A DNA stretch of 64,000 nt from Kordiimonadaceae bacterium (GTDB taxonomy: Bacteria; Pseudomonadota; Alphaproteobacteria; Sphingomonadales; Kordiimonadaceae): NCBI GenBank assembly GCA_017640725.1, contig JAEPQB010000001.1, forward strand, positions 186,001 to 250,000. The letters run 5' to 3'. Below, piece by piece: positions 45,973 through 63,540 of the stretch. The first letter of the stretch is position 1. The number at the start of each line of letters is the position of its first letter. A program made the translations under genes and the position numbers. The notes beneath the pieces were generated by a model that worked only from the letters and a program-made list of their open reading frames with translations, did no database searches and had not been told where the DNA came from.

Positions 45973-45989
45973 TTGTTATATAGATATAC
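45973..45989. promoter_or_regulatory. Island B operator-like element B1
   Basis: TTGTTATATAGATATAC aligns with the core element TTGTTATATCAATATAC at 49342. A second, degenerate copy on the other strand (CTTATATATCAT, 45989-46000) follows directly. It lies between divergent VOC genes, 12 bases from one start and 41 from the other. Confidence 0.65.
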
Positions 45990-46029
45990 TTATATATCAT
46001 TTAAGTGATGTGAGTAAAGCGAAGAGCAT

Positions 46030-46515
46030 ATGAACGCAGTGTTGGACAGGTTTGGTGACGAGCCGTTCTTGAAACGTACAACCATCCGGGTGCGGGACAT
46101 GGACAAGTCTATCGCCTTTTATGAACGTGTGATTGGCATGAGCCAATATTACAACAACGAGATTGTGCTCGATCGTCACTTTTTACCCGGTGAAAAACCG
46201 GGAGACAAAATTCATCTGGTGATAATGAAGGGCAAGGACCCCACAATTGGCATGATCGGCCTGCTAAAGTGGATTGATCCACCACAATCACCACCACCTG
46301 TCACCTATGATTTTGACTTTGGACAACCGGTTTTTGTCGTGCAATGCCCAGACGCCAAAAACCTGTATGAAAATGCGAAGGAGCTGGGATGTAAAATCCG
46401 GTCTGCGCTTACTGAAACTGAATATCCAGCCGCCGGTGGCGGTACAGTAAAAGTGCGTTCAGTGGGGCTTTTTGACCCCGACGGCCATTTTTTTGAATGT
46501 AATCAACGCCTATAG
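46030..46515 (+). CDS. VOC-family protein, tandem copy 1
   Basis: 161 residues. One VOC domain: TTIRVRDMDKSIAFYERVIG, LVIMKGKDPTIGMIGLL, YDFDFGQPVFVV and VKVRSVGLFDPDGHFFECNQ. The first metal position is Arg/Thr rather than His, so classic Ni/Zn glyoxalase chemistry is doubtful. The next gene (46532) shares long identical blocks, a recent tandem duplication. Divergent from the VOC gene at 45491, under element B1. Confidence 0.85.
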   Translation: MNAVLDRFGDEPFLKRTTIRVRDMDKSIAFYERVIGMSQYYNNEIVLDRHFLPGEKPGDKIHLVIMKGKDPTIGMIGLLKWIDPPQSPPPVTYDFDFGQPVFVVQCPDAKNLYENAKELGCKIRSALTETEYPAAGGGTVKVRSVGLFDPDGHFFECNQRL

Positions 46516-46531
46516 ATTTTGGGGGAAACAC

Positions 46532-46996
46532 ATGACTGCCATTATAAAACGCACGACACTCAAGGTTCGTGACATGGAAAAATCCATTGCCTTTTATGAA
46601 GGTGTTATGGGCATGTCTAAATACTATGACAATGAAATCACCCTTTCTGGCAACCTTTTACCAGGTGGCAACAAAGGCGACGTAACACGCCTTGTGATAA
46701 TGAAAGGCGAAGACCCTGTGATCGGCATGATTGGTCTTCTCGAATGGTTGAGCCCAAAACCCGACGCACCAGAAATTCCGTATGACTTTGACTTTGGCAA
46801 CCCCGTGTTTGTGGCGGCTGTCGAAGACGCAGAAGTGGCTTTTGAGAAAGCGCAAGCACTTGAGTGCGTTATTCGTGCGCCCTTGTCAGAGGCCGAGTAT
46901 CCAGGTGCAGTTGGCGGGGTGGTCAAAGTACGCTCCGTCGGCGTCTTTGACCCCGACGGACACTTCTTTGAGCTTAATCAGCGCCTTGAGGGATAA
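46532..46996 (+). CDS. VOC-family protein, tandem copy 2
   Basis: 154 residues from the ATG at 46532 (GGGGGAAACAC upstream), 16 bp after copy 1. It repeats the motifs of copy 1 (TTLKVRDMEKSIAFYEGVMG, LVIMKGEDPVIGMIGLLEW, YDFDFGNPVFV, VKVRSVGVFDPDGHFFELNQ). Middle segments differ, so substrates or a heterodimer interface may have diverged. Ends 5 bp from the convergent MFS gene. Confidence 0.85.
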   Translation: MTAIIKRTTLKVRDMEKSIAFYEGVMGMSKYYDNEITLSGNLLPGGNKGDVTRLVIMKGEDPVIGMIGLLEWLSPKPDAPEIPYDFDFGNPVFVAAVEDAEVAFEKAQALECVIRAPLSEAEYPGAVGGVVKVRSVGVFDPDGHFFELNQRLEG

Positions 46997-47001
46997 AGCC
47001 C

Positions 47002-48363
47002 TCAATCTGAGAATTTAGCAAGTTCCTGACGGTAAGCTTTGCCGATGGTACCAGACAGAAGCAAAATCGTGCCGCTGTATAATAGCGGCACCAGCGCCAT
47101 TGAGTATTTCAGTAGCGCTTCATCTTCGAACACTCTGTCCGTGAAAAACGGAACGGCACTTGGACCAATGATAAGTCCGGTTAGGCTGATAAACATATAG
47201 TATAGTGCGACTGACTGAGCCCGAATTTCGCTCGGCAAAATCGCCAGTAGCGCAGTAATGCCCCCCGCAGTAACCATCGTAAAGCCAACGTTAGCAATTT
47301 GCGACACCATGAAAGCAGCCCAAACATTGGGTAGCAGCGGGAAAATCACGCTGGCTATGACCAAAGTGGCCAAACCCGCCTGCGTAATGCGAAATGCTAT
47401 ATCCTTCTTGCCTTGCTGATTTAGCCTGTCCATCAACCAACCCCAAAACATGATAGACGTTGGTGCCAGAATGATTAGAAACCGGCCATTCCAGTAACTA
47501 AATTCAGCCGCAGTCCAGTCCCATGTCCGCTCAAACAAAGCGGGGAGCCAAAAACCAGTATAAGCGACGACTGTCATAGCGGATACCATCAGAGTTACGC
47601 CAAAAAGAGGTAACCAGTGTGTCCGCATATAACGCGCTGCGTCGCCAAGGGTTACTTTGTTTCCATCCGCCACACTTTGTTTGGTTTGCTTCCGGGCTGG
47701 CTCTTTCACCGTCAAGAACAAAAGGCCCAACAAAACACCAGGGAAACCCACAGCCAGAAAGACCACTTGCCAGGGCCGGTCTACGCCAAGGAACGCAAGT
47801 GTGGACAAGTCCATATTCTCTGCAAACAGCAGAATTTCCGTTACGATGATGTATGCGATGCCAGAACCGAGGCCGAGGCCTGTCGAATAAAGCGCAATTG
47901 CTTTTGCCCGGCGTTCTGGCGGAAACATATCGGAGATCAGGGACATGGCACTAGGGCTGAGAGATGCCTCACCAACACCCACTGTCATGCGGGCCATAAA
48001 CATCTGAACAAAGTTTTTTGAAAGCCCAGATGCCATTGTAGCCAATGACCACACAATGGCACCTGCGGCCACGATAAATTTTCTTGGCTTTCGATCGGCC
48101 AACCAACCGAGTGGAAGACCCATTGTGGCGTAAAAAATGGCGAAAGCCAGCCCAGCCAGCACCCCCATTTGAGTATCTGACAGCCCAAAATCCTCTTTTA
48201 GCGGGGTCACCAGCAGGCTTAAAACCTGGCGATCAATATAGGAAAAAATATAGGCGATGGTCAGTAAAACAACCACGTACCAACCATATGCCGCACTTGG
48301 ATATCCCTCAGACTGGCCGTCACTTTCTGCCGAGGTATCTTGAGTTTCAGCTGTGTCTGACAT
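47002..48363 (-). CDS. MFS transporter, spinster-like
   Basis: 453 residues, 12 membrane helices. The N-terminal WYVVVLLTIAYIFSYIDRQV, then LPLGWLADRKPRKFIVAAG (loop 2-3 motif A) and GVGEASLSPSAMSLISDMFP match the spinster-like MFS group, often annotated as hydrophobic organic-acid or sphingolipid carriers. It probably moves the island B substrate or a product across the inner membrane. Divergent from the membrane protein at 48525, with element B2 between. Confidence 0.92.
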   Translation of the reverse strand: MSDTAETQDTSAESDGQSEGYPSAAYGWYVVVLLTIAYIFSYIDRQVLSLLVTPLKEDFGLSDTQMGVLAGLAFAIFYATMGLPLGWLADRKPRKFIVAAGAIVWSLATMASGLSKNFVQMFMARMTVGVGEASLSPSAMSLISDMFPPERRAKAIALYSTGLGLGSGIAYIIVTEILLFAENMDLSTLAFLGVDRPWQVVFLAVGFPGVLLGLLFLTVKEPARKQTKQSVADGNKVTLGDAARYMRTHWLPLFGVTLMVSAMTVVAYTGFWLPALFERTWDWTAAEFSYWNGRFLIILAPTSIMFWGWLMDRLNQQGKKDIAFRITQAGLATLVIASVIFPLLPNVWAAFMVSQIANVGFTMVTAGGITALLAILPSEIRAQSVALYYMFISLTGLIIGPSAVPFFTDRVFEDEALLKYSMALVPLLYSGTILLLSGTIGKAYRQELAKFSD

Positions 48364-48412
48364 CGCATATTCTCCCCACTGCGATCAGAATTGATATCGC
48401 TTCTTTTTCTAC

Positions 48413-48429
48413 TTGTTATATCTTTATCA
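48413..48429. promoter_or_regulatory. Island B operator-like element B2
   Basis: TTGTTATATCTTTATCA matches the first ten bases of the island B core TTGTTATATCAATATA. It lies 50 bases before the MFS start and 96 before the membrane-protein start in a divergent promoter region. Confidence 0.6.
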
Positions 48430-48524
48430 CAACTTTTACCAGTTTATTGACGTGCATCAATGCAAAAAAGCCCCCCGAACCAGAGATTGAGGCCAACAAA
48501 GGGGTTACCTGTAGGGAGCATGTG

Positions 48525-49244
48525 ATGGACACATATCTAAACTTTTTGGGAATGGAGATCCCGCTGCATGACGTGCTGCGCTGGGTCCATATTATTTTGG
48601 CGGCCTATTGGCTGGGCGGCGAATGGGGCGTTTTTAACGCGTCCACTTTTGTTGCTGACCGCACCCTGACGCTCGAGGAACGGCGCCGCCATATGCAGAC
48701 CGCGGTGATGATCGACATCCTGCCGCGCTCTGCCATTATTTGGTTACTGCCGGTGGGATTCCACATGGCAAGCAACTATGGCTTGTCGCCAGTTAACGGC
48801 GTGTGGGTCACCGTTGCGTGGGTCGCGACCGCCATATGGTGGTGGGCACTCATTTGGCAAGCGTTCAAAAATCGGGGGACCGAGAAATATGTCCGCCTAA
48901 CCCAGATCGACAATAAAATCCGTTGGGTGCTTATTCCGGCGCTGATGATCGCAGGCCTTTACACCATTTTCACTGGCAAAGTGTTGTTCACTGGTGAAGA
49001 AGCCGGTCAATATTGGTTTGGATTCAAAATGGCCTTCTTTGGCTTTATCCTGATCATTGGCCTGTATCTGCGCTATGTGATGACAGATTGGGTCGGCGCC
49101 TTTAGAAAGCTTGAAGCTGATGGACCGAACGATGAGATCGAAGACCACATCTATGGTACGCTTCAGCAAGCACGCAAGGCAGCTTATCTTTATTGGATTA
49201 GCATCGGCACCATGGCCTTTGTCGGCGTTACCAAAGCATTCTGA
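48525..49244 (+). CDS. Membrane protein with about six helices, unknown function
   Basis: 239 residues from the ATG at 48525 with GGGAG eight bases upstream. The first segment WVHIILAAYWLGGEWGVFNA (about 17-36) recalls the haem-proximal helix of CopD-like or PuuD/urate-oxidase N-terminal membrane proteins. Further helices lie near 68-88, 95-115, 132-150, 164-184 and 212-232. Several His (H12?, H18, H77) could hold haem, but this is speculative. Alone in its transcription unit, closed by a strong terminator at 49267. Divergent from the MFS gene under element B2. Confidence 0.65.
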   Translation: MDTYLNFLGMEIPLHDVLRWVHIILAAYWLGGEWGVFNASTFVADRTLTLEERRRHMQTAVMIDILPRSAIIWLLPVGFHMASNYGLSPVNGVWVTVAWVATAIWWWALIWQAFKNRGTEKYVRLTQIDNKIRWVLIPALMIAGLYTIFTGKVLFTGEEAGQYWFGFKMAFFGFILIIGLYLRYVMTDWVGAFRKLEADGPNDEIEDHIYGTLQQARKAAYLYWISIGTMAFVGVTKAF

Positions 49245-49266
49245 GCCAAGGAAAACAGCACCATAG

Positions 49267-49291
49267 GGCAGGCCCAAGGCCTGCCTTTTTT
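49267..49291 (+). terminator. Intrinsic terminator
   Basis: GGCAGGCC (49267-49274), loop CAA, GGCCTGCC (49278-49285), then six T. It ends the membrane protein transcript and isolates the DUF1838-leuCD-like operon. Confidence 0.9.
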
Positions 49292-49340
49292 GTGGGCTGG
49301 TATTGCAAATATTCAATAACAAAAGGAATCAATTGATCCT

Positions 49341-49355
49341 ATTGTTATATCAATA
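49341..49355. promoter_or_regulatory. Island B operator-like element B3
   Basis: ATTGTTATATCAATA, identical over 15 bases to the reverse complement of the element at 53776. It lies 39 bases before the DUF1838 start. Confidence 0.7.
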
Positions 49356-49393
49356 TACTATTTAAACAGAATCCAGCAGTAAGGAGACATCTG

Positions 49394-50308
49394 ATGATGG
49401 GGATACTGAAAAAGGGACAGATGGCGCTAACGGGTGCGCTGGCTGCTTTGCTGGCGGGAACGACCGTTTCCGCTGCACCAATTGACTTAAACACACCGGA
49501 AGGTGCCGTTGCCGCCAACCGCAAAATCCAGTGCTCAACCGAGGATAACAAACCAGTCCTATACACGTGGGAGGGTTCTGTTTTTTCCCGCCGCATGGGC
49601 GAAGCTGACAAGCGCATGTTTGGCACGGTGGGCATGAACATCCGCACGTGCGTGACCGTGGATGGCGGCAAAAAAGGTATGGGTTACCGCCTGGTATCCA
49701 AAGAAATCCTGCTTTATCTCGACCCAAGGACTGGCGAAGCTCTGGAAACATGGGAAAACCCTTGGACTGGCACAACTGTTGACGTTTTGCATGTCGCCAA
49801 CGACCCGGTAAACCAGCGCCCCAGCTTCCCTTACGACGATGACGGCAACCCGCGCGCCCGTTGGTTTGCCCGGAACCAGGGAGAAAACTGGTTTATGACG
49901 GCACCAATTCCCTTGTTTTACCACAACGAGCTCGGCGGCGAGTACCAGCAGTATGTGGGCGGCGCATACCATGCGACCGAACTGTTTAACTTCATGGGAG
50001 ACCTCGACAGCCTGACCAGCGATCAGACAGATACCGCCAAAGCAAAAGTGGGCTGGGTGCGGATTTCTGATTGGCTCCCTTGGATGGAAATGCAGGGTCG
50101 TGAAGGTATCATTTACATTCACGCGGCTGGCCAGAAAGTGGATAGCTGGGATCAACTGCCCGACGTTATGAAGCGCTATGTTGCAGAAAAAGAGCCAACT
50201 TACACGGCACCGCCCCCAGGTGATGATGATCGCCCCAACGAAACCAGCTGGACTTACTTCAAAAGGAAAATTGAAGGCGGCAAGTTTCCACGTGGCGGTC
50301 ATAACTAG
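49394..50308 (+). CDS. DUF1838 family secreted protein
   Basis: 304 residues with a signal peptide (residues 1-27, ending TVSA). The mature start PIDLNTPEGAVAANRKIQCS and the motif APIPLFYHNELGGEYQQYVG are typical of DUF1838 proteins, an uncharacterised family often encoded beside lyases and TonB receptors in sphingomonads and relatives. Trp/Tyr-rich (WEGSVFSRR, WFARNQGENWF), suggesting a binding pocket for a hydrophobic ligand. First gene of an operon with the LeuC/LeuD-like pair (19-bp gap), so it may act on the same compound in the periplasm. Confidence 0.82.
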   Translation: MMGILKKGQMALTGALAALLAGTTVSAAPIDLNTPEGAVAANRKIQCSTEDNKPVLYTWEGSVFSRRMGEADKRMFGTVGMNIRTCVTVDGGKKGMGYRLVSKEILLYLDPRTGEALETWENPWTGTTVDVLHVANDPVNQRPSFPYDDDGNPRARWFARNQGENWFMTAPIPLFYHNELGGEYQQYVGGAYHATELFNFMGDLDSLTSDQTDTAKAKVGWVRISDWLPWMEMQGREGIIYIHAAGQKVDSWDQLPDVMKRYVAEKEPTYTAPPPGDDDRPNETSWTYFKRKIEGGKFPRGGHN

Positions 50309-50327
50309 TCTCGGCTAAGACATAACT

Positions 50328-51749
50328 ATGGCACAAACCCTGTTCGATAAATTGTGGGATGCGCATGTCGTTACCGACCTCGGCGACGGCAGCGCCCTAC
50401 TCTATATCGACAGGGTGTTTATCCATGAGCGCACCGGCAGTGTCGCGCTCAAATCACTTCAGGAAAGCGGTCGAAAAGTTCGCTTTCCTGCCCACGCGTT
50501 TGGCACCATGGACCATATTGTCGATACCATCGAAGGTCGTGACGACAATACAATTATGCCAAGCGGAAGAGAATTCATTGAAGCCATGCGCGACGGTTGC
50601 GAGTGGGCGGGCATACGACTATTCGACGTCAATGACAGCGACCAGGGCATTGTTCATGTCATTTCTCCGGAGCAAGGCATCGTCCTACCGGGCCTGAGCC
50701 TGGTTTGCCCCGACAGCCACACCTGCTCACAAGGGGCTTTTGGTGCCCTCGCGTGGGGCATAGGGTCTACCGAGGCAGAACATGCTTTAGCAACATCCAC
50801 GCTCAGGGCAATCAAACCAAAAACTATGCGCATACACATTAGTGGCGTATTGGACAAATCCCTTACAGCAAAAGATGTGATCATGCACATAATCGGGGAA
50901 TTGGGTGCCGCTGGCGGCAGCGGATACGCTATTGAATTTTGCGGCCCGGTCGTAGATGCCATGGACATGGAAGCCCGCATGACTTTGTGCAACATGGGCG
51001 TTGAACTTTCTGCCTTCACGGCGCTCATTGCGCCAGATGAAAAAACCATCCAATTTCTTCGCGGGCGACCGTACGCGCCTTCTGGTGAGGCCTGGGCAAA
51101 CGCTGTCGATGCTTGGGCGTCTCTCAAATCAGATGCTGACGCCTGCTTTGACAAACAAATCGAAATCAACATCGATACACTCTGCGAAACCGTGACTTGG
51201 GGCACTAGCCCAGAGCATGCACTGCCAATTGATGGTTTTATCCCAGAGCCGACAGGAGAAAGTACGGCCAAAGCCCTTGCTTATATCGGCTTGGAGGCTG
51301 GTTCAGCCATTCGCGGCACGCTAATAGACGGCGCATTCATTGGGTCTTGCACTAATGGGCGCCTCTCAGATTTGCGCCGCGCCGCTAACATACTAAAGGG
51401 GCACCATGTTGCACCCGGTGTGAAGGCCATTTGTGTGCCAGGCTCCATGGCAGTAAAGGCGGCGGCAGAATTGGAAGGCATTGACCGTATTTTCAAAGAT
51501 GCGGGTTTTGAATGGCGCCTGCCGGGTTGCTCAATGTGTTTTTTTGCTGGCGGCGAAAGCTTTGGTCAAAGGGCGCGTGTGATTTCCACCACAAACCGAA
51601 ACTTTGAAAACCGTCAAGGCCCCCGAACAAGGTCTCATCTTGCAAGCCCAGCAACAGTTGCTGCGTCCGCCATTATGGGACATATCGCCAGCGTGAGCGA
51701 TATTGACGAGCGTTCATCAGATCAGCTGATGTCCGCAGGCGGCCGGTGA
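50328..51749 (+). CDS. LeuC-like aconitase-family large subunit, diverged
   Basis: 473 residues, normal LeuC length, aligned by eye along its whole length. Fe-S cysteines intact: Cys341 in IGSCTNGR, Cys401 and Cys404 in PGCSMCFF. Departures from isopropylmalate isomerase are at the active site: GDSHTST becomes PDSHTCS (129-134), TNSR becomes TNGR, and the CLAMN stretch after the last ligand becomes CFFAGGE. The enzyme therefore probably (de)hydrates another malate-type acid, such as an alkyl-citraconate/citramalate pair. It sits in an inducible catabolic operon with DUF1838 and the small subunit, not with leucine genes. Confidence 0.88.
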   Translation: MAQTLFDKLWDAHVVTDLGDGSALLYIDRVFIHERTGSVALKSLQESGRKVRFPAHAFGTMDHIVDTIEGRDDNTIMPSGREFIEAMRDGCEWAGIRLFDVNDSDQGIVHVISPEQGIVLPGLSLVCPDSHTCSQGAFGALAWGIGSTEAEHALATSTLRAIKPKTMRIHISGVLDKSLTAKDVIMHIIGELGAAGGSGYAIEFCGPVVDAMDMEARMTLCNMGVELSAFTALIAPDEKTIQFLRGRPYAPSGEAWANAVDAWASLKSDADACFDKQIEINIDTLCETVTWGTSPEHALPIDGFIPEPTGESTAKALAYIGLEAGSAIRGTLIDGAFIGSCTNGRLSDLRRAANILKGHHVAPGVKAICVPGSMAVKAAAELEGIDRIFKDAGFEWRLPGCSMCFFAGGESFGQRARVISTTNRNFENRQGPRTRSHLASPATVAASAIMGHIASVSDIDERSSDQLMSAGGR

Positions 51750-51750
51750 C

Positions 51751-52380
51751 ATGGAGAAATTCACACGCATATCAGCGATTGCTGCACCTATTGTTCGTGA
51801 AAACATAGATACCGACATCATCATTCCGTCACGCGAAATGAAACACGTTTCGAAAAAAGGCCTGTCTGACGGCCTATTTGCAGGATGGCGGTATAGCGAC
51901 ATGGACGCACGAACGCCTGAACCGGATTTCGTTTTGAATGACCCGGCCTATCTCGGTACACAAATATTGATTGTTGGCGAAAATTTTGGCTGTGGATCGT
52001 CACGTGAACACGCTGTGTGGGCACTAGCAGAATACGGCATTCGCGCAATTGCAGCGCCCTCTTTCAGCGCAATTTTTCGAAGCAATTGCATTCAAAACGG
52101 TGTGCTTCCGATTGCCGTGGATAAAACCGAAATCGGCCGATTGGCAGAGCAAGCTGTTGGGGGCTCAAACGGAATCTTTACGGTTGATTTGCTTGAGCAG
52201 AAAATATTAATGCCAAGCGGCGAAAAGCTGACTTTCGACATCAGCCAACAGGATCGCCAATCGCTCATTGATGGACTGGATCCAATTGACCGAACTTTGC
52301 AGCTTTCTGACCAGATTAGCGCCTTTGAGGCGTCCAGGATTGGCGCCAATCCATGGGTGGACTTGCGGGTAAAACCCTAA
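51751..52380 (+). CDS. LeuD-like aconitase-family small subunit
   Basis: 209 residues, 1 bp after the large-subunit stop. The swivelling domain carries IVRENIDTDIIIPSREMK and the substrate-loop FGCGSSREHAVWAL (79-92). The canonical NVDTDQIIP is NIDTDIIIP, a small change near the substrate carboxylate. It completes the heterodimeric hydro-lyase with the gene at 50328. Its stop overlaps the convergent YCII gene by four bases. Confidence 0.88.
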   Translation: MEKFTRISAIAAPIVRENIDTDIIIPSREMKHVSKKGLSDGLFAGWRYSDMDARTPEPDFVLNDPAYLGTQILIVGENFGCGSSREHAVWALAEYGIRAIAAPSFSAIFRSNCIQNGVLPIAVDKTEIGRLAEQAVGGSNGIFTVDLLEQKILMPSGEKLTFDISQQDRQSLIDGLDPIDRTLQLSDQISAFEASRIGANPWVDLRVKP

Positions 52381-52715
52381 CGGTAGGTGACCCCACCTAC
52401 CGCCTCACCCAACGCCCCGCGAAACAAATGAAACTCAACGCTCTCCCAAATCGGGGCCTTGAAATAAGGATCTGCCTCCAACCATTTGCGGGCTTGTTCT
52501 TTGTCTTCAGTTTTATAGATGAGTGTGGAACCGATGAGTGTTTTGCCGTCATCATCAAACACCGGACCCGCCACCAATATATGCTCGAGTATAGATTCAA
52601 CGTGATCGAGATGACCCAACATATGCTCTTCTCTCGCGGCTTGAGCTTCTGGCCCCGACTTGTCTTTGCATACGGCCATAACAAACAGTTTTCGGTTGAC
52701 GTCAGCATCGCTCAT
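52377..52715 (-). CDS. YCII-related domain protein
   Basis: 112 residues. Ferredoxin-like YCII fold: LFVMAVCKDKSGPEAQAARE, HLDHVESILEHILVAGPV, then ADPYFKAPIWESVEFHLF with the conserved DP-F turn. The YCII group is related to muconolactone isomerase and EthD; some members are dehalogenases. Downstream of the HMG-CoA-lyase-like gene (17 bp gap) in the same operon. Role unknown, likely a small isomerase or lyase of island B. Confidence 0.8.
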   Translation of the reverse strand: MSDADVNRKLFVMAVCKDKSGPEAQAAREEHMLGHLDHVESILEHILVAGPVFDDDGKTLIGSTLIYKTEDKEQARKWLEADPYFKAPIWESVEFHLFRGALGEAVGGVTYR

Positions 52716-52732
52716 CTGAATTCCTTTCCAAA

Positions 52733-53680
52733 CTATGCAGCAGGCAAATAGCCGTGCGGATAGCCTTTTGGTAGTCCGGCATCTGGCGTGAAACCATAAA
52801 GCGGCTCACCTGGAAGCGCTTCTTCAACAATTGACCGAACTGCCAACAGTCTTTCCAAGTCAATGCCAGTTTTAAGGCCCATGCTATCGAGCATGTAGAC
52901 TAAATCCTCTGTCACTATGTTTCCGCTCGCACCCGGTGCAAACGGGCAGCCACCTATACCGCCCAAGGAGGCATCCAGTGTCGTAATTCCAACCTCGAGG
53001 GCTGCCATGACGTTCGCAAGACCAACACCGCGTGTATTGTGGAGATGCAATCCAGTCAACTTGTCGTCACCAACAGCGGCCTTCACCGCCTTAGTCAAGC
53101 GCTTAACCTGTCCCGGATTTGCATAGCCGGTGGTGTCTGACAGTCCTACTTCGCTGCAGCCCCGCTCCATCAAAGCCTCCGCCAAACGCACCACAACATC
53201 TTCCGCAATCGGGCCTTCAAGTGTGCATCCAAATGCCGTCGACAACCCGCCCTCAAAAACTGGCCGTTCACTTGCAGGCAAACTGTTAATCAACTCAACA
53301 ATGCGCGAAACTTCATCCAGCATTTGCGCGTGCGTACGACGGACATTCTTCAAACTGTGGGTTTCACTAACGCTCAGGGGTATAGTGATTTTGTCCGCAC
53401 CGGCTTTCACGGCGTTTTCCGCACCCCTAAAGTTAGGGACCAAAACGGCAACGGTCAGGTTTGGAATGGATTTGGCGAACCCGACCAGTTCAGCCGTATC
53501 CGCAAGTTGTGGCAGGATTTTCGCCGGTACGAATGACCCAACTTCAATTTCCGGCACACCAGCAGCAGCCTCTGCAGCCACCCAGGCCTTTTTAGCCTCC
53601 AGCGGCATAATGCGATCAATGCTTTGAAGACCATCCCGAGGCCCTACTTCGCTGATTTCAATATCAATACCAGGCGCCAT
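52733..53680 (-). CDS. HMG-CoA-lyase-like enzyme (island B)
   Basis: 315 residues from the ATG at 53680; the frame is open further upstream but no ATG lies there and the operator at 53776 is closer to a promoter. Complete DRE-TIM lyase: ISEVGPRDGLQS (10-20), STAFGCTLEG, SDTTGYANPGQVKRL, LHLHNTRGVG (metal His about 212/214) and GIGGCPFAPGASGN (Cys about 245). Cleaves an acyl-CoA with a tertiary 3-hydroxyl. Divergent from CaiB. With the LeuCD-like hydratase it suggests hydration, CoA transfer, cleavage to a 2-keto acid plus acyl-CoA. Confidence 0.92.
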   Translation of the reverse strand: MAPGIDIEISEVGPRDGLQSIDRIMPLEAKKAWVAAEAAAGVPEIEVGSFVPAKILPQLADTAELVGFAKSIPNLTVAVLVPNFRGAENAVKAGADKITIPLSVSETHSLKNVRRTHAQMLDEVSRIVELINSLPASERPVFEGGLSTAFGCTLEGPIAEDVVVRLAEALMERGCSEVGLSDTTGYANPGQVKRLTKAVKAAVGDDKLTGLHLHNTRGVGLANVMAALEVGITTLDASLGGIGGCPFAPGASGNIVTEDLVYMLDSMGLKTGIDLERLLAVRSIVEEALPGEPLYGFTPDAGLPKGYPHGYLPAA

Positions 53681-53775
53681 TCCAATGCAACTCCCACCCC
53701 TGAATTCGGGGCTAATATCTACTCGTATTGGTTCATTGTCACGAATTTCAGGTTGAACCAATCTTTTAATTGCTC

Positions 53776-53790
53776 TATTGATATAACAAT
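53776..53790. promoter_or_regulatory. Island B operator-like element B4
   Basis: TATTGATATAACAAT, the exact reverse complement of the element at 49341. It lies 96 bases before the HMG-lyase-like start and 79 before CaiB in their divergent promoter. Confidence 0.7.
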
Positions 53791-53868: not shown

Positions 53869-55062
53869 ATGACAGCCAAACAAAAACTGCCGTTATCCGG
53901 CATCAAAGTGATCGAATTCACCCACATGGTAATGGGGCCAACTGTTGGCGTCATGTTGGGTGACCTTGGTGCTGATGTTATCAAAATAGAACCCACTAAG
54001 GGTGACAATACACGCCGGTTGGTTGGTGCGGGTGCGGGATATTTCGCCATGTATAACCGCAACAAACGCAGCATCTGCCTGGACATGAAGTCGGATGAAG
54101 GCAAGGACATCGCCCGGTCATTAATAAAAGATGCCGATGTGGTGATTGAAAACTTCAGGCCCGGCGCAATGGATAAGTTGGGCTTTGGTTACGATGACCT
54201 TAGCGCACTTAATGATCGGCTGATTTATTGTTCTGAAAAAGGATTTCTGGCCGGGCCTTACGAGGAACGCACAGCTCTTGATGAAGTTGCGCAGATGATG
54301 GGGGGCCTTGCCTACATGACCGGTCCACCCGGCAGGCCACTAAGGGCTGGCTCAAGCGTGATTGATGTTGCTGGTGGCATGTTTGGCGTAATCGGTATTT
54401 TGGCTGCCATTGAAGAACGCCACCGTACAGGCAAAGGCCAGTATGTAAAAAGCTCACTGTATGAAACAACGGCTTATCTGGTAGGCCAGCATATGGCGCA
54501 ATATGCCGTGACTGGAACACCCGCACAGCCAATGCCTGCACGCATTTCAAGCTGGGCCATTTATGATGTGTTTGATACTGCGGACGACGATCATGTTTTT
54601 GTCGGTGTTGTCAGCGATACCCAGTGGGTAGTGTTTTGTGAGGCATTTGGCTTGCATGACCTGGCGGACAACCCGGAATATGCCACAAACCCAGAGCGAG
54701 TAAAAAGACGCGACACATTGATGCCAAAAGTGCGCGAATTATTTGGAAAGTTCACGAAACCTGAGTTGATGGCAAAGCTCGAGAAAACCGGTTTACCTTT
54801 CGCGCCGATTGCCAAGCCACAAGACCTTATTGATGACCCGCATCTTAATGCGGCAGGCGGCATGCTTGAGGTCACTCTTGATAACGGAACCAGGGCAAAA
54901 CTGCCTGCCATGCCGCTAGAAATGAACGGCGAACGCTTGGGCTTGCGAGAAGACCTTCCAGGAATTGGTGAACATACTGCCGAAGTTCTGAAGAGCCTTG
55001 GATACAGCGATTTCGATGTGGAAAAACTTGGCGCCACCGGCACGATCCGGTGCGGCAAATGA
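53869..55062 (+). CDS. CaiB/BaiF family III CoA transferase (island B)
   Basis: 397 residues; ATG 53869 after AAGGGG. Family blocks: VIEFTHMVMGPTVGVMLGDL, GADVIKIEP, YNRNKRSICLDMKSDEG, ENFRPGAMDKLGFGYDDL and the catalytic Asp166 in SSVIDVAGG. It diverges strongly from the island A CaiB at 31305, so it probably has its own substrate, plausibly the hydroxyacid made by the LeuCD-like pair. Overlaps the small gene downstream (ATGA at 55059). Confidence 0.92.
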   Translation: MTAKQKLPLSGIKVIEFTHMVMGPTVGVMLGDLGADVIKIEPTKGDNTRRLVGAGAGYFAMYNRNKRSICLDMKSDEGKDIARSLIKDADVVIENFRPGAMDKLGFGYDDLSALNDRLIYCSEKGFLAGPYEERTALDEVAQMMGGLAYMTGPPGRPLRAGSSVIDVAGGMFGVIGILAAIEERHRTGKGQYVKSSLYETTAYLVGQHMAQYAVTGTPAQPMPARISSWAIYDVFDTADDDHVFVGVVSDTQWVVFCEAFGLHDLADNPEYATNPERVKRRDTLMPKVRELFGKFTKPELMAKLEKTGLPFAPIAKPQDLIDDPHLNAAGGMLEVTLDNGTRAKLPAMPLEMNGERLGLREDLPGIGEHTAEVLKSLGYSDFDVEKLGATGTIRCGK

Positions 55063-55357: not shown

Positions 55358-56482
55358 TTATGGCTTCTGCGCGGTCACCACATACCACTTCAGCGGACCA
55401 TCAAGCTGATCGAGATAATGAGCTTTCACATGGTCTCTTCCAAAGCCGCTTTTCACCAGCAACTCCGGCACATTCGCTGACGCATAATCAAGCCAAAAGG
55501 GTTCGCCGTTGTTCTCTTTTTGCCATTCAGACAAAAACTGAATGAAGGGCGGCAACATATCGAGCTGCACAGCAACATCCTGATGAAGGCAAAGGCCGCC
55601 GGGTGCCAACACCCGCTCGCACTCCCTCATGATCACCCGCTGATGACTGGCTTCTGTTTCGTGCAACATATTATGTGAAACGATCAGATCAAACTCGTTA
55701 TCCGCATAAGGAAGGTCGCCAGCATCGGCCAGTTGAAACTGTATATTTGCACCCAGCGTATCTGACCTTTTCTTGGCGTATCGCAGCATGGCAGGCGAAA
55801 CATCCACCGCATGGATCTCGGCACTCGGAAACGCTTCAGGGTAGTAGGTTGTTTGTGCTCCTGCCGAACACCCCAGCTCCAGAACTTTTCTGGGCTTTAA
55901 CCCGGGGAACTCTTCACAAATGAAATTGATGATGCGCTGCGCTTTAGAGTCTTTCGCGCCAATGTTTTGCCCCATGGCATAGATATTGCCGCCCATCTCA
56001 TACAAAAGACCCGCACCCAAGTCGCCGTCAAATCGGTCCAGCAAGTAGCCGCCCGGCTGGCAATGAATATCAGCCTGAGCGATATAGCCCGGCGCAGAAA
56101 AATCGACTGGTTCGACCAGGGAAGCATTGCCGGGCAAAGCCTGTGAAGCCTCTTCAATACGGTCATAGTCAGCATCGATTTGGTTCGAAAGCATTGTCCA
56201 CATTCGATGTTGCGCCGCCCGGTTTACGCTGGACCATAATCTATATTGCGGCGTATCTTTCAGTTCATTCCGAAAATCCTCAGCGTGCTTGACTGGACGA
56301 CCAAGTCGTTCCTCCGTGCGCGGTTTGACATTCGTTTCATATGACTTCATCAGTGCAGGTTGCAGCACGCCGCCAACCGCGCGCTTTAAAGCTAACACGG
56401 CCAAACGCCTGCTCATGCCGTCATGATCGGTTTGAGGCATCAGGTCATGGGTAAGGTCACGTGACACAACTGGCTCCAACAT
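55358..56482 (-). CDS. Class I SAM-dependent methyltransferase
   Basis: 374 residues from the ATG at 56482. The Rossmann-type core spans about 195-320: KVLELGCSAGAQT (SAM loop, 200-211), IHAVDVSPAMLRYAKK, DAGDLPYADNEFDLIVSHNM and APGGLCLHQDV. The first 190 residues are a separate helical domain without signature (with WSSVNRAAQHRMWTMLSNQI). Substrate unknown; quinone, phenol or acid methylation are possibilities. Divergent from the MFS gene at 56559, under the strongly palindromic element B5, so it belongs to the regulon. Confidence 0.85.
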   Translation of the reverse strand: MLEPVVSRDLTHDLMPQTDHDGMSRRLAVLALKRAVGGVLQPALMKSYETNVKPRTEERLGRPVKHAEDFRNELKDTPQYRLWSSVNRAAQHRMWTMLSNQIDADYDRIEEASQALPGNASLVEPVDFSAPGYIAQADIHCQPGGYLLDRFDGDLGAGLLYEMGGNIYAMGQNIGAKDSKAQRIINFICEEFPGLKPRKVLELGCSAGAQTTYYPEAFPSAEIHAVDVSPAMLRYAKKRSDTLGANIQFQLADAGDLPYADNEFDLIVSHNMLHETEASHQRVIMRECERVLAPGGLCLHQDVAVQLDMLPPFIQFLSEWQKENNGEPFWLDYASANVPELLVKSGFGRDHVKAHYLDQLDGPLKWYVVTAQKP

Positions 56483-56496
56483 TTGGCATTGCTTAG

Positions 56497-56516
56497 TTGT
56501 TATAGATATATAACAA
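56497..56516. promoter_or_regulatory. Island B operator-like element B5
   Basis: Inverted arms TTGTTATA (56497-56504) and TATAACAA (56509-56516) around GATA. This is the most symmetrical copy of the island B element and shows the likely dimer half-site TTGTTATA. It lies 15 bases from the methyltransferase start and 43 from the MFS start. Confidence 0.7.
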
Positions 56517-56558
56517 TATAAGCATGTTCGCCAATATTTATTGGTGCTGGGGGAACGG

Positions 56559-57857
56559 ATGACGCTCAAAAAAACATTTGTATGGGGTTGGGGCCTTGGA
56601 TCGATAGGCCTTGCGGTCGTGCACAACACGCTCAATGTACTGCTAATGGCGTATCTCATTCGCGTCGTTGGCATAGAGCCGGCACTTGCTGGCACCATTG
56701 TTTTAGCGACAAAACTTGTCGACGTACTCACAGACATGCCTGTTGGCTGGCTCTCAGATCGCACGCATTCGAGGTTCGGGCGCAGAAGACCGTTCATGCT
56801 TGCTGCCGCGCTCATTACACCGGCCGCTGCGTACCTGCTGTTCACAGCAGGCCCCGGTGGGCAGACCCAAGCGATTATCAGCTTATTGCTTTTGAGTGCG
56901 GTAGGATACACCCTCTTCAATGTTCCCTACCTTTCCATGCCGGCAGAGATGACCAAAAGTCCGGACGTTCGCACTCACATGGTTGGGATTCGTTCCAGCG
57001 CAATTGCCCTCGGAACGTTATTTGGCATTTCGGCTGCACCCATCATTGTGGGCCAACTTGGCGGCGGTGCAGCCGGTTACAATAGTCTGGCACTTATTAT
57101 GGCCGGCGCCATCTTTGTTGCCTTTTTCGGGAGCTTCACAAGTCTCAATGGCGCCCCTGATCACGCTGCAGGCGATCCACCCTCAGCTCTATTGCAACAA
57201 CTGAGGTCAATCATCAAAGGTCGCAGCTATCAGATGCTTTTGGCCATCAAAATTCTGCATTTGTTGGGACTTGCGGTCGGTGCTGGCAGCCTGCTGTTTT
57301 TCTTCACAGGTGCCCTGAAGTATGACGCAACAATGCTGGGCCTATATGGCATGGTTACCACCCTCACCTGGACAATCGTCATGCCGCTCTGGACTTGGCT
57401 TGCCAATAGGATCGGCAAGCGAAAAGGTTACATGCTGGCGACGGCCCTCTATACCATCGTGACGCTGACGTGGTTGCTGGCAGAGCCCCAGGAACCATTC
57501 GCCCAACTATACGGCCGCGCGTTCATGTTCGGTATTCTTTCGGGTGGCATGCTGTTGATGGGCAACGGCATGCTGCAAGACATTATGGATGATGATTTCC
57601 GCAAAAACGGCGAACGCAGGAACGGTGTTTTTGCCGCGAGCTACAGCCTCACTGAAAAAATCACCTCCGGTCTGGCGGCACAAATTCTTGGATTCATTCT
57701 GGCCTATACTGGCTATCAGCGCGGTGCGGAGGAACAATCGCCTGATGCGATTAGCGGCCTATACTTCTCAGTTGGTTTTGTGCCCGCAATTTGTATGGGG
57801 GCCAGCTTGTTGTTCATCTACTATTACACGCTTAGTGAAGAAGACCTGAGAAGCTGA
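56559..57857 (+). CDS. MFS transporter, GPH-type (MFS_2)
   Basis: 432 residues from the ATG at 56559 (GGGGGAAC upstream). Twelve hydrophobic segments and the MFS_2 signature DVLTDMPVGWLSDRTHSRFG, then RRRPFMLAA, around residues 56-85. GPH-type carriers move glycosides or organic acids with H+ or Na+. It is the second inner-membrane carrier of island B and probably takes a different intermediate from the one at 47002. It ends 14 bp from the convergent reductase gene. Confidence 0.9.
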   Translation: MTLKKTFVWGWGLGSIGLAVVHNTLNVLLMAYLIRVVGIEPALAGTIVLATKLVDVLTDMPVGWLSDRTHSRFGRRRPFMLAAALITPAAAYLLFTAGPGGQTQAIISLLLLSAVGYTLFNVPYLSMPAEMTKSPDVRTHMVGIRSSAIALGTLFGISAAPIIVGQLGGGAAGYNSLALIMAGAIFVAFFGSFTSLNGAPDHAAGDPPSALLQQLRSIIKGRSYQMLLAIKILHLLGLAVGAGSLLFFFTGALKYDATMLGLYGMVTTLTWTIVMPLWTWLANRIGKRKGYMLATALYTIVTLTWLLAEPQEPFAQLYGRAFMFGILSGGMLLMGNGMLQDIMDDDFRKNGERRNGVFAASYSLTEKITSGLAAQILGFILAYTGYQRGAEEQSPDAISGLYFSVGFVPAICMGASLLFIYYYTLSEEDLRS

Positions 57858-57871
57858 ACATCGCAAATTGG

Positions 57872-58897: not shown

Positions 58898-58945
58898 ATT
58901 CTGCTCTCCTTGCGCCGTATCCTGCCTACAGGCGTTCGAGGTACC

Positions 58946-58959
58946 ATGACCTAGGTCAT
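58946..58959. promoter_or_regulatory. Perfect 14-bp palindrome between divergent genes
   Basis: ATGACCTAGGTCAT reads the same on both strands. It lies 49 bases before the reductase start and 47 before the hydrolase-fold start. Length and symmetry suit a dimeric repressor of the TetR, MarR or GntR class different from the one reading the B elements. No candidate gene for that regulator is adjacent. Confidence 0.5.
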
Positions 58960-59005
58960 TCACGGAGCCTGTGCGAAATTCCAAAGTAGTCGGCGGGAGA
59001 AAACT

Positions 59006-59812: not shown

Positions 59813-59920
59813 CGCCATGCCTTAAACCACACCATCTAGAAATTCCAAGTGTGCTTAATTGGACACACATTTGCCGATGCTCGACGCCAAGCAAGACATT
59901 TGCGGCGATTTAGTTGACAT

Positions 59921-59937
59921 AGTATTATATCAATATT
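59921..59937. promoter_or_regulatory. Island B operator-like element B6
   Basis: AGTATTATATCAATATT shares TTATATCAATAT with the element at 49341. It lies about 115 bases before the TonB receptor ATG in a 239-bp intergenic stretch that otherwise shows nothing recognisable. Confidence 0.6.
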
Positions 59938-60051
59938 ACAAATAAACAGTGCTGAGATGCTGACAAATGCGCAAGTTTATGTCGTGTGTTCGGATTTGCA
60001 TCCAGCAGGGGAGTTTTCCAAAGCCACGGTTCCTTAACGGAGGGGAAGGAC

Positions 60052-62469
60052 ATGATCCATAAAAAGAGACTTCTGGCATCTGCCGCCATGAGCCTTGTGC
60101 TGGCTGTGCCAAGCGTTTCCATGGCAGTAACTGCGCAAGATGCAGCGGCTGACGATGAGAGTTTTGCAATTGACGAGATTATCATCACTGCGCGTAAACG
60201 TGAGCAGAGCTTGCAGGACACGCCGATTGCGATTTCTACGTTCAACACGCAACAGCTGTTTGACGCCGGCTTCAACAACATTGTTGATGTAGCGCGTGCA
60301 ACGCCTGGCCTATTTATTGAAGGCTATAACGATAGAAACGCACGTATCGCGACGTCTCCAAGATTCCGGGGAATAACCGTAGATAACAGCGATCCACTGT
60401 TGCGCACGGCATCGGTATTCATCGACGGCGTATATGTAACGGGCGGTATCCAGGGCATTGGCGTTCAGGAACTTGAACGCGTTGAAATCATTAAAGGCCC
60501 TCAGTCTGCTCTGTTTGGCCGGAACACGTTTGCCGGTGCAATCAACTACATCACAAAAGACCCGGGTGAAGAATTCAAAATCAACATGATGGGCCTTGCC
60601 GCAACACGCGATGAATATCGTGGTCAAATCGGCATCGAAGGTGGCATCACTGACAATGTTAACGGTCGACTGAATGTCAGCTACGATCATGTAGGCGGTC
60701 ATTACCGCAACAACAATGATCGCAGTCAGGAACTTGGCGAAGAAACAACTTGGTCCGTATCTGGCACGCTGGTCTTGAAGCCGACTGAAAATTTCCGCGT
60801 AAAGGCGCGGGCTCTTTATTATGAGGATTCTGACGGCCCTGCTGCTGTTGCGCGTGTAGGTGGCTTCGCCGAGCACAATTTTGGCGGCTTTCCTCTTGAA
60901 GGCGGTGGAACAACCGAGCGGGCTTTCCAAGGAACATTACGCATTCCGGGTGACGACGAGGTCGCCGCCAATACAACGCGGACAGATTTTGATCTGGCCA
61001 TGGCAGCTTTGGCACGGTTAGGCGAAGCAACTTCGTTGGGCCTGACTTTTGATGATTTGGATGGGTTTGGTCTGGAACGGGAAGCGTTCCGTGGCAGCAT
61101 AGCCAGCACTTATGACTTCGACAACGGCATGGCTCTTGATGTTCTGTTTGGTTACAACAAGGAAGAATACCTGTTCTTTGGTGACTTTGACAGCACAGGC
61201 ACCTATGGCTTTAACACGTCTGGCGCCAGCGATATTGAAGACATTAGTATTGAAGCGCGTCTGTCAGGCACTGCTTTTGATGACAAGTTGACCTGGACAA
61301 TTGGCGGTAACTATCTGGATATCGATATCCTCACTGCCGGTGGCTTTTATGATGGCATTCTGGATTTCTGGTTCTCTGGCGTGATCGCACCTGCGAATTC
61401 TACTGGTGCTAAAACGGCTGGCTTGTTTGGTATTCTCGACTATCAAATCAACGAGCAACTTCAGATCATTTTTGAAGGCCGGTACCAAGATGACGAAATC
61501 CGCAATGCAGCCGTGAACAATGGTGTTGGCAACTTCGATAAGTTCTTGCCTCGCGTTGTGTTGAACTGGACACCAAACGACGACACCACCGTTTACTTGA
61601 ACTACTCTGTCGGCAACTTGCCAGGGGGGTTCAATGCGGAGGTCGCCGAACTGGATGCGGAACAGCTTCGCCAGTTGGAACTCGACAACCCAGGCATCGA
61701 CCAAACGTTCAACGAGGAAAAACTTGAGAACTACGAAATCGGTCTGAAGCAATATTTTGACGAGCGCCGCGCGGCCATGAATGTTGCAGCATTTTACATG
61801 AAACGGTCCGATCAGATTTTCTCTGGTTTTGCCTTCATTGATGAAACGGATCCGAACGCGCCAAACCCTGTACGGACTGTTGCCTTCACTGGCAATGGCG
61901 CCACCACAGACATTTATGGTGTTGAAGTTGATCTTACTTACAATCTTTCGCAGGCTCTAACGTTCCAGGGGTCGGTATCATACATTGATGCGACAATTGA
62001 CAGCTTCCCTGAAGGTGCTGGGTCCGGTGATTTTGGCGATGTGTTTGGCCCTGACGCCAGTGTTGAAGGTCAACGTGCCCCGCGCTTCCCGAAATGGGCG
62101 TGGAACGCGAATCTGACATACGAGAAACCCATAAATGGGACATTCCTCGGCATCGAAGATCCAACATACTTTTGGCGTGCTGACAGTTTCTATTCCGGCA
62201 GTTTCTTTGACAGCAATACAAACCTTGCCCGCACGCAGACTGCTCTTGATATCAATTTCAGAACAGGCCTGCGGATGGACAATCTGTCAGTTGAGTTGTT
62301 TGTGACCAATCTGTTCAACGAAGATGCGCCGCCGTCTGCAAACAATATTGCGGACACCAGCGCGGATGTTCGCTTCGGCAGTGGTTTCTTTGACTTCTCG
62401 CAAGAAAGTATCCACGTGGCCCTGCGTCGCAAGCGCCAAGTTGGTATTCGCTTCAACTATAACTTCTAA
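60052..62469 (+). CDS. TonB-dependent receptor of catabolic island B
   Basis: 805 residues from the ATG at 60052, preceded by GGAGGGGAAGG. Signal peptide about 1-27, then the TonB-box/plug junction IDEIIITARKREQSLQDTPI, VDVARATPGLFIEGYNDRNA, VEIIKGPQSALFGRNTFAGA, and a barrel ending FNYNF. Same broad subclass as the receptor at 27208, but with different extracellular loops. Presumed outer-membrane entry for the island B substrate. Controlled by element B6; followed by two hairpins. Confidence 0.93.
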   Translation: MIHKKRLLASAAMSLVLAVPSVSMAVTAQDAAADDESFAIDEIIITARKREQSLQDTPIAISTFNTQQLFDAGFNNIVDVARATPGLFIEGYNDRNARIATSPRFRGITVDNSDPLLRTASVFIDGVYVTGGIQGIGVQELERVEIIKGPQSALFGRNTFAGAINYITKDPGEEFKINMMGLAATRDEYRGQIGIEGGITDNVNGRLNVSYDHVGGHYRNNNDRSQELGEETTWSVSGTLVLKPTENFRVKARALYYEDSDGPAAVARVGGFAEHNFGGFPLEGGGTTERAFQGTLRIPGDDEVAANTTRTDFDLAMAALARLGEATSLGLTFDDLDGFGLEREAFRGSIASTYDFDNGMALDVLFGYNKEEYLFFGDFDSTGTYGFNTSGASDIEDISIEARLSGTAFDDKLTWTIGGNYLDIDILTAGGFYDGILDFWFSGVIAPANSTGAKTAGLFGILDYQINEQLQIIFEGRYQDDEIRNAAVNNGVGNFDKFLPRVVLNWTPNDDTTVYLNYSVGNLPGGFNAEVAELDAEQLRQLELDNPGIDQTFNEEKLENYEIGLKQYFDERRAAMNVAAFYMKRSDQIFSGFAFIDETDPNAPNPVRTVAFTGNGATTDIYGVEVDLTYNLSQALTFQGSVSYIDATIDSFPEGAGSGDFGDVFGPDASVEGQRAPRFPKWAWNANLTYEKPINGTFLGIEDPTYFWRADSFYSGSFFDSNTNLARTQTALDINFRTGLRMDNLSVELFVTNLFNEDAPPSANNIADTSADVRFGSGFFDFSQESIHVALRRKRQVGIRFNYNF

Positions 62470-62478
62470 GACTATTCA

Positions 62479-62509
62479 GCTCTGGGCCCTGGCCCGGAGC
62501 TTTCGATTT
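62479..62509 (+). terminator. Hairpin after TonB receptor
   Basis: GCTCTGGGCC (62479-62488) pairs with GGCCCGGAGC (62491-62500) apart from one mismatch, followed by TTTCGATTT. Confidence 0.7.
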
Positions 62510-62580
62510 AGTTTTGAGTAAGTCTCGGCCAGGCTTGGCTATTTGCCAGAACGGCCATTCCTTCATGAGAACCTATTCAG

Positions 62581-62607
62581 CCGGCCCACTTGGGCCGGTC
62601 TTTTTTT
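62581..62607. terminator. Intrinsic terminator between convergent genes
   Basis: CCGGCCCA (62581-62588) and TGGGCCGG (62591-62598) form a strong stem followed by TCTTTTTTT. Backs up the hairpin at 62479 and lies before the convergent GntR gene. Confidence 0.85.
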
Positions 62608-62630
62608 ATTCTGTGGGTTTGGAAATGCGC

Positions 62631-63443
62631 TTAGTGCTCGGTTTTCCAGAAGTTGGAGTCTTCACCTTCAACACGCGAAAGGGTCATGTTCATCTGATAA
62701 AGATCCGGACGATAAAGAACGGTAATAAATTCGACCGGCCGGTCGTTACTGTCGATTACCACACGCGTCACCTTCAGGAGCGGACTGCCCACGTTCACGC
62801 TCAGCATGGATGCAGTCTTGCCGTCCGCCAAGGTTGCGGTGATAGACTGCCGGGCACGCGATATCTTAACACCTGCCCGTTCCAGCAGCGCGAGCAATGG
62901 CTGGTTTTCCATTTCTTCTTTCTTGAACGAACGGCCTATATCTTCGGGCACATATGTTTCGACATATGAAAACGGCGTATCATCCTTGTGGCGAACACGG
63001 ATCGCACGCTGAACCTTTGTACTGGGTGGCACTTCAAGTGCCTCGGCGGCACGGGGTGGCGCCGCCACATAATCGAACTCGTGAATGGTTACCTGCGTTT
63101 CAAGCACAATGGTCAGCAGGTTCTCAAGCAGCCCGTCCATTGATTCCGCACTTTTGGATGGCACAGGAGCAGAAAAGGTTACAACCGTACCGCGGCCGCG
63201 CTGACGGGCAACGAGACCATCCGCCGCAAGTTCATCTAAGGCGCGCTTTGCTGTAATCCGGGAAACATTGAATATTTTTTCAAGCTCATGCTCGCTCGGG
63301 ATCAAGGTTCCCTCAGCATAGTCCCCGGACACCACCTTTTCTCTCAAAAGGACGTAAATCTGGTGATAGAGCGGTGTTGGCAAGTCTTCATTGACGCGTT
63401 CCGTAGCAGAAAAAGTCACATCGCTATTTCGGTTTTTGCTCAT
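62631..63443 (-). CDS. GntR-family regulator with UTRA domain (HutC/FarR type)
   Basis: 270 residues from the ATG at 63443 with GGGGGA upstream. The winged helix spans about 20-90: LYHQIYVLLREKVVSGDYAE, LIPSEHELEKIFNVSRITAK, RALDELAADGLVARQRGRGT. The UTRA ligand domain (about 105-265) includes RAIRVRHKDDTPFSYVETYV and the final LYRPDLYQMNM block. UTRA members bind small metabolites and usually repress. A copy of the repeated island B element lies 83 bases upstream between it and the divergent DUF1330 gene, so it is the best candidate for the regulator of all seven copies, including its own promoter. Confidence 0.92.
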   Translation of the reverse strand: MSKNRNSDVTFSATERVNEDLPTPLYHQIYVLLREKVVSGDYAEGTLIPSEHELEKIFNVSRITAKRALDELAADGLVARQRGRGTVVTFSAPVPSKSAESMDGLLENLLTIVLETQVTIHEFDYVAAPPRAAEALEVPPSTKVQRAIRVRHKDDTPFSYVETYVPEDIGRSFKKEEMENQPLLALLERAGVKISRARQSITATLADGKTASMLSVNVGSPLLKVTRVVIDSNDRPVEFITVLYRPDLYQMNMTLSRVEGEDSNFWKTEH

Positions 63444-63525
63444 AAATTCCCCCATACTCAAAACGCTAGAAATCTTGCTGGCCAGCCCCATTGATATTGA
63501 TCAACGTGCGGGTCAACATCGCCGG

Positions 63526-63540
63526 ATATATTGATATATC
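63526..63540. promoter_or_regulatory. Island B operator-like element B7
   Basis: ATATATTGATATATC; its reverse complement GATATATCAATATAT aligns with TTATATCAATATA of the element at 49341. It lies in the divergent promoter of the GntR/UTRA gene and the DUF1330 gene, as expected for an autoregulatory site. Confidence 0.65.

Follow-up and report, generated by a model that had tools for sequence, protein, structure and literature searches.

Related regulators and the locus

Regulators of the HutC subfamily (HutC, PhnF, NagR/YvoA, DasR, TreR) join a GntR winged-helix domain to a chorismate-lyase-like UTRA effector domain, and PMC4494728 gives them palindromic operators before the regulator's own gene and between divergent operons, with the consensus GTMTAKAC, in which GT and AC stand 4 nucleotides (nt) apart in most sites and to which FarR, NagQ and SdhR are among the exceptions. 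The same source has Arg35 of FadR making a specific DNA contact, and describes YtrA-subfamily operators as keeping their conserved GT and AC well away from the middle of the palindrome, with YtrA C-terminal domains being short and the sites almost never between divergent operons. The system described here comes from a 64,000-nt stretch of the genome of a Kordiimonadaceae bacterium (contig JAEPQB010000001.1, positions 186,001 to 250,000; “the window” below), and comprises a GntR/UTRA protein encoded at 62631–63491 and a set of inverted repeats of 20 base pairs (bp), best written WTGNTATANNNNTATANCAW, which are predicted to be its operators.

By domain content the 62631 protein belongs with HutC, its winged-helix (PF00392) and UTRA (PF07702) domains both scoring above cut-off, and the nearest named solved structures to it are YvoA and DasR; as in that subfamily, a palindrome stands before its own gene and others lie between divergent genes. 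A structure model of the protein has a mean pLDDT of 74.5. All 17 NCBIfam regulator models that match the protein do so below cut-off, those for HutC (112.8 against 220) and PhnF (94.9 against 156.8) included. In WTGNTATANNNNTATANCAW the GT and AC are 12 nt apart and not 4, a deviation from the HutC consensus of PMC4494728 that counts against the assignment, although the 4-nt spacing is a usual rather than strictly defining feature of the subfamily. In the alignment made for this work across 23 homologues, the residue aligned to FadR Arg35 is His, Asn, Lys, Gln, Met or Ala and never Arg, and all 23 retain the Arg aligned to FadR Arg45. The wide spacing resembles that of YtrA operators; unlike YtrA proteins, however, the 62631 protein carries a complete UTRA domain, and most of its sites are between divergent genes. 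No report of this regulon, operator or operon was found in openly licensed PubMed Central papers, although this does not prove that none exists.

The operator motif and its extent

The initial annotation placed seven copies of a repeated element in the window and all seven are present, offset by 0–2 bases from where they were put, the true unit being the 20-bp inverted repeat. With TTGTTATATCAATATA at up to 3 mismatches there are 11 strand matches in the window, against a mean of 0.20 and a largest count of 2 in 100 shuffles, and nine of the 11 fall in the seven elements, with two elements giving a match on each strand. The remaining two matches, at 20886 and 63797, lie inside open reading frames with matrix scores of 10.7 and 6.2, against 21.4–27.2 for the seven elements (all of them in the training set of the matrix described below), and were rejected as operators, so that the claim of no copy elsewhere in the window holds in substance if not to the letter. 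The exact half-site TTGTTATA occurs seven times in the window (0.79 expected). Two of these copies are in the element at 56497, four in four other elements, one each, and the last in the coding sequence at 63797; only variants of the half-site are present in the elements at 59922 and 63527. The layout of five elements between divergent genes and two between tandem genes is also borne out, given two choices of start codon (ATG 45961, not 46000, for the VOC gene 45491, and ATG 56482 for the methyltransferase).

A stretch like 63797–63816, inside the DUF1330 coding region, recurs at the corresponding position in other Kordiimonas genomes (G005 and G013 at 14.0, G018 at 12.4), which is probably coding conservation; a weak extra site is the less probable reading.

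Genome-wide, the 16-mer originally offered is not specific at up to 3 mismatches (23 strand matches, 27 for its reversed control), whereas the refined WTGNTATANNNNTATANCAW at 0–1 mismatch occurs at nine places in the 4.04-Mb own genome, all within 63 kb (G000:C6:231981-295399), with nine operator regions holding one place each. At exactly 2 mismatches 15 further places appear, 13 of them scattered and two in known operators, one of these being the operator before the GntR gene; with up to 2 mismatches allowed, the reversed control of WTGNTATANNNNTATANCAW matches 20 places. A weight matrix trained on nine own-genome sites (the seven in the window with C6:260350 and C6:295380 outside it) returns leave-one-out scores of 13.3–25.3 for those sites and finds an untrained tenth at C6:268378, between divergent genes. 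Over 280 kb around the island it gives 12 positions above 14 within C6:206000–296000 and 2 elsewhere (operators in relatives were listed at scores above 13, other matrix scans using 14). A match at C6:155465 (score 14.9), which is in an AT-rich run and some 76 kb away from the first operator, was not counted among the operators. The seven window sites therefore stand, and the bound of seven sites and 20 kb does not: there are ten operators, spread across some 63 kb, and three lie past the window end.

Before the VOC genes, the DUF1838 gene and the TonB receptor gene a second, overlapping match is shifted by 8 bp, and across the 80 homologue loci considered below, matches that score above 10 and lie within 30 bp of each other have a spacing of exactly 8 bp in 24 of 26 pairs, a dominance owed in part to the internal symmetry of the motif; the overlap may offer room for two bound dimers, or may be motif self-similarity.

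Conservation bears on the explanation that chance or a dispersed repeat accounts for the copies and that they have no regulatory role, as their AT-rich sequence and the failure of the loose 16-mer to outdo its control would allow. That explanation is strongly disfavoured and was rejected on three grounds: the confinement of WTGNTATANNNNTATANCAW to one region; the invariance of 140/160 site columns against 373/1120 flank columns (eight operator regions, with 3–5 Kordiimonas genomes per region, being those with the site within the sequence compared); and the presence of operators at orthologous positions in four genomes, all ten in G005, G013 and G018 and six of the seven window operators in G014.

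Coupling of the operator to the regulator

As the sole argument, an intergenic repeat with one copy before a GntR gene is only suggestive of the regulator involved. That copy does lie in the GntR gene promoter, as first described, and is conserved in four relatives, and the loci of GntR/UTRA homologues extend the association well beyond the genus. Among the best 80 of at least 550 confirmed relatives of the protein, the own-genome matrix finds a site above 14 upstream of the homologue (400 bases before to 60 after the match start) in 56 loci, where 100 column-permuted matrices on the same loci find a mean of 0.6 and a maximum of 6. By density, 65 matches in 36,035 upstream positions compare with 30 in 1,303,134 positions elsewhere in these loci. 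A de novo palindromic motif search with no input from the window was applied to the upstream regions of the distant loci; of 62 such loci, 60 had upstream sequence that could be used, and dereplication left 52 regions. The same palindrome emerges in 46 of these 52, with a log-likelihood of 519.8 (150 starts) against 38.2–40.6 for four shuffles (40 starts); the distant sites share an outer A/T as well, extending the palindrome to 22 bp. Within the genus (a sample of 19 genomes) the strict pattern WTGNTATATNNATATANCAW, with one mismatch allowed, occurs in all five genomes with the GntR gene, at 1–6 places each, and in 2 of the 14 without it, at one place each, much as the reversed control does (3/19).

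That some other regulator binds the sites, the GntR gene being one of its targets, is improbable. Sites in the promoters of many genes would suit a CRP/FNR-like protein (C6:255907), the LysR protein at window 38083 or a distant protein, and in 15/80 loci, nearly all of them close relatives, the GntR gene has a CRP-like gene nearby. Yet a CRP-like relative lies in the flank of just 1/62 distant loci, where the palindrome is nonetheless common upstream of the regulator, and on these two grounds the CRP-like and LysR proteins were rejected as the binder; the strict pattern moreover follows the GntR gene within the genus.

The attribution of the repeats to the 62631 protein, proposed at the outset, is thus upheld by the conserved sites, the co-occurrence in the genus and the palindromes that matrix and de novo search find at distant homologues. 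The motif, its restriction to one region, its conservation and its coupling to the regulator clade are computed directly, and the repeats are predicted to be operators of this protein at a probability of roughly 0.85.

Several observations weigh against this reading. An upstream site above 14 is missing from 24/80 homologue loci, and tabulated against the pathway modules described below (78 of the 80 loci, those with at least 150 bases upstream) the site is missing in 18/67 loci with modules and present in 7/11 without, the latter including Kordiimonas loci whose modules fall beyond the flank. Two homologues of 43–44% identity have their site past the 3' end of the gene. Over all 147 relatives searched (own genome included; 26 with a GntR homologue at E <= 1e-30) the strict pattern is found in 16/26 with the gene and in 16/121 without it. 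Finally, G014 is without the methyltransferase/MFS_2 operator, and near its carbon-nitrogen hydrolase gene no site was found within the stretch examined.

Single palindromes of the type ATGTTATATNNATATAACAT occur in five relatives without a GntR homologue at that E value (G057, G088, G099, G122, G134) and are possibly operators of another regulator.

As in the family at large, a dimer would bind the 20-bp palindrome beside or within promoters and so repress the regulator's own gene and nine other promoter regions, and a compound of the pathway binding the UTRA domain would release the repression.

Genes in and around the regulon

The operators and the genes they adjoin are collected in Table 1.

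Table 1. Predicted operators and adjoining genes. Positions are those of the window, or of contig C6 of the own genome (G000) where so prefixed. The ALDH-like gene and the methyltransferase-like and TRAP-transporter-like genes near C6:268378 are named from sequence alone.
Feature	Position	Strand	Context or domain evidence
Operator 1	45973..45992	+	between VOC/hydrolase operon and tandem VOC genes; overlapping match 45981-46000
Operator 2	48413..48432	+	between MFS_1 transporter and small membrane protein
Operator 3	49342..49361	+	before DUF1838-leuC-leuD
Operator 4	53770..53789	-	between HMGL-YCII and CaiB
Operator 5	56497..56516	+	between methyltransferase and MFS_2 transporter; near-perfect palindrome
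Operator 6	59914..59941	+	before TonB receptor; overlapping matches 59914-59933, 59922-59941
Operator 7	63523..63542	-	between GntR gene and DUF1330-ALDH; lowest matrix score of the seven
Operator beyond window	C6:260350		between carbon-nitrogen hydrolase and zinc-type oxidoreductase
Operator beyond window	C6:268378		between VOC/methyltransferase-like/TRAP-transporter-like/FAD-oxidase run and amine oxidase
Operator beyond window	C6:295380		before second TonB receptor, then PepSY protein
GntR/UTRA (HutC-type) regulator gene	62631..63491	-	PF00392 66.2 bits (cut-off 27), PF07702 115.6 bits (cut-off 23.8)
VOC-like protein, VOC operon	43693-44706		PF13669 match below cut-off only
Alpha/beta hydrolase, next in VOC operon	44703-45491		PF00561
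VOC protein, first operon gene	45491..45961	-	PF00903
Two tandem VOC genes	46030..46996	+	PF00903
MFS_1 transporter	47002..48363	-	PF07690
Small membrane protein	48525..49244	+	tested 193-aa part without Pfam match
DUF1838 protein	49394..50308	+	PF08894
LeuC-like and LeuD-like hydratase subunits	50328..52380	+	PF00330, PF00694; NCBIfam PRK12466 and leuD above cut-off
HMG-CoA-lyase-like protein and YCII protein	52377..53761	-	PF00682, PF03795; PRK05692 above cut-off
CaiB-type CoA-transferase	53869..55062	+	PF02515; below all NCBIfam cut-offs listed
Methyltransferase	55358..56482	-	PF13649 and others
MFS_2 transporter	56541..57857	+	PF13347
TonB-dependent receptor	59986..62469	+	PF00593, PF07715
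DUF1330 gene and start of ALDH-like gene (runs past window)	63622..64000	+	PF07045

Three DUF1838 genes lie in or adjoin the regulon, that of the window and those at G000:C6:299760-301648, and a search of the DUF1838 predicted fold against solved structures gave nothing informative (2 matches at E <= 0.001, with TM-scores of 0.22–0.27).

In the distant loci (62 of the 80; flanks of up to 10 kb, tblastn matches covering less than half of the query being ignored) the regulator often heads a run of genes with LivK (44), LeuC-like (44) and small-subunit (38) genes, an isocitrate-lyase-family lyase (47) and HyuB (41), the transporter genes there being Liv-type and the hydratase aconitase-type. The Kordiimonas island has CaiB and the HMG-CoA-lyase-like enzyme (HMGL) in place of the distant isocitrate-lyase-family lyase set. 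Over the 80 loci the isocitrate-lyase-family lyase (47) and the HMGL relative (10) never share a locus, nor do HyuB (41) and a PuuE-like protein (10), nor LivK (44) and a TonB receptor (3), a mutual exclusion of which the lyase part speaks for the pathway proposed below, with a weight limited by the short flanks and by shared ancestry; two loci have the isocitrate-lyase-family lyase together with a CaiB relative of 33–34% identity. In one distant example tested, the small subunit is of the LeuD/DmdB subfamily, and the lyase falls below every NCBIfam cut-off listed; the relatives of this lyase are methylisocitrate lyase chains and, at a weaker level, those of 2,3-dimethylmalate lyase (3fa3). 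The best match to this lyase in the own genome, at 29% identity, is outside the island.

A possible pathway

Nicotinate fermentation pairs a 2,3-dimethylmaleate hydratase with a dimethylmalate lyase (DmdAB, Dml), citramalyl-CoA lyases of the HMGL family exist, imide hydrolase offers an analogy for amide-hydrolase-like genes, and alkylmaleimides have a tetrapyrrole origin. From gene content it may be proposed, tentatively and at clearly less than even odds, that the regulon serves a pathway acting on an alkylmaleate-type dicarboxylate by hydration, CoA thioester formation and cleavage. The dicarboxylate, perhaps released from an amide or imide that the amide-hydrolase-like genes would open, would be hydrated by the LeuCD-like enzyme; CaiB would make the CoA thioester of the hydrated acid and the HMG-CoA-lyase-like enzyme would cleave it. 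In many other bacteria with this regulator clade the isocitrate-lyase-family lyase would do the cleavage, and the two lyase types could cut the same alkylmalate bond after an aconitase-type hydratase, one in the free acid and the other in the CoA thioester.

The distant operons resemble DmdAB/Dml in pairing an aconitase-type hydratase (with a LeuD/DmdB-type small subunit in the tested example) with a lyase related to 3fa3, and differ in that the lyase scores higher against methylisocitrate lyase and phosphorylmutase chains, the Kordiimonas hydratase being of another LeuCD type. The island itself recalls the citramalyl-CoA route, in which a CoA-transferase and a lyase yield pyruvate and acetyl-CoA, in that its CaiB-type transferase adjoins a lyase expected to cleave a 3-hydroxy-3-methylacyl-CoA. 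According to PMC6689899 one enzyme cleaves both citramalyl-CoA and HMG-CoA, but that enzyme is outside the HMGL TIM-barrel sequence family of the island protein.

It is quite possible, if still short of an even chance, that the regulon is right and its chemistry ordinary, the LeuCD pair being a second isopropylmalate isomerase and the HMGL a leucine-type HMG-CoA lyase, with the VOC, hydrolase and TonB genes serving an unrelated aromatic or terpenoid substrate. The island LeuD-like protein passes the leuD cut-off (191.5 against 116.25), LeuC passes two isopropylmalate dehydratase subfamily cut-offs (PRK12466 and PRK05478) and HMGL passes that of the HMG-CoA lyase subfamily PRK05692 (278.5 against 246), all of which speaks for such chemistry and against the alkylmaleate proposal. 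LeuC, however, falls just short of the leuC equivalog cut-off (552 against 560.25), and two other LeuC paralogues, at 47% identity, are encoded in the own genome (one with an internal TAG, G000:C6:743129-744532), because of which the island pair is probably not the sole isopropylmalate isomerase. Nor does leucine metabolism explain why LeuCD-like genes accompany the regulator in many genomes beside two alternative lyases.

Also to be set against the alkylmaleate proposal is the lack of operators before nearby amide-hydrolase-like genes, which weakens the link of these genes to regulon and pathway. The trio at 41138–43680, an isochorismatase-like gene and two PuuE-like deacetylase-fold genes, has no operator before it (best matrix score -8.8), and the same trio is near the regulator in 10/80 homologue loci; its proteins 41837 and 42763 score 123.9 and 137.3 bits against the allantoinase PuuE equivalog_domain cut-off of 424.6, and the nearest solved structure of the former is PuuE 3cl6. 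A second set of isochorismatase, CaiB, HMGL, HyuA and HyuB genes occupies window 30664–37561, with the LysR gene nearby at 38083, and there is no operator before its HyuAB block (33636–37561), the best matrix score, -5.4, being between CaiB and HMGL.

A broader version of the alkylmaleate proposal is unlikely as a whole: that a widespread and mainly alphaproteobacterial pathway, hitherto undescribed, has this clade as its cognate regulator, and that in it a cyclic imide or lactam would be opened and an alkylmaleate freed, hydrated and cleaved, with unrelated enzymes swapped in at several steps while the regulator and its wide-spaced operator stay constant. On that proposal the substrate is possibly an alkylmaleimide such as the oxidation of tetrapyrroles yields.

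Significance

Overall the regulon is new, with a regulator of a known kind and an atypical operator, and its control of a catabolic pathway is plausible. Sequence alone here connects a single regulator with its operator and with a regulon of ten operators, and the regulator clade is found in many Alphaproteobacteria. Since the operator spacing is unusual for the subfamily, a structure on DNA would show how a GntR protein adapts to the distance between half-sites. Moreover, enzyme sets that carry quite different labels, namely leucine biosynthesis, HMG-CoA lyase, hydantoinase and polysaccharide deacetylase, are connected by the regulator they share, and this linkage is a handle on the catabolic pathway behind the regulator clade.

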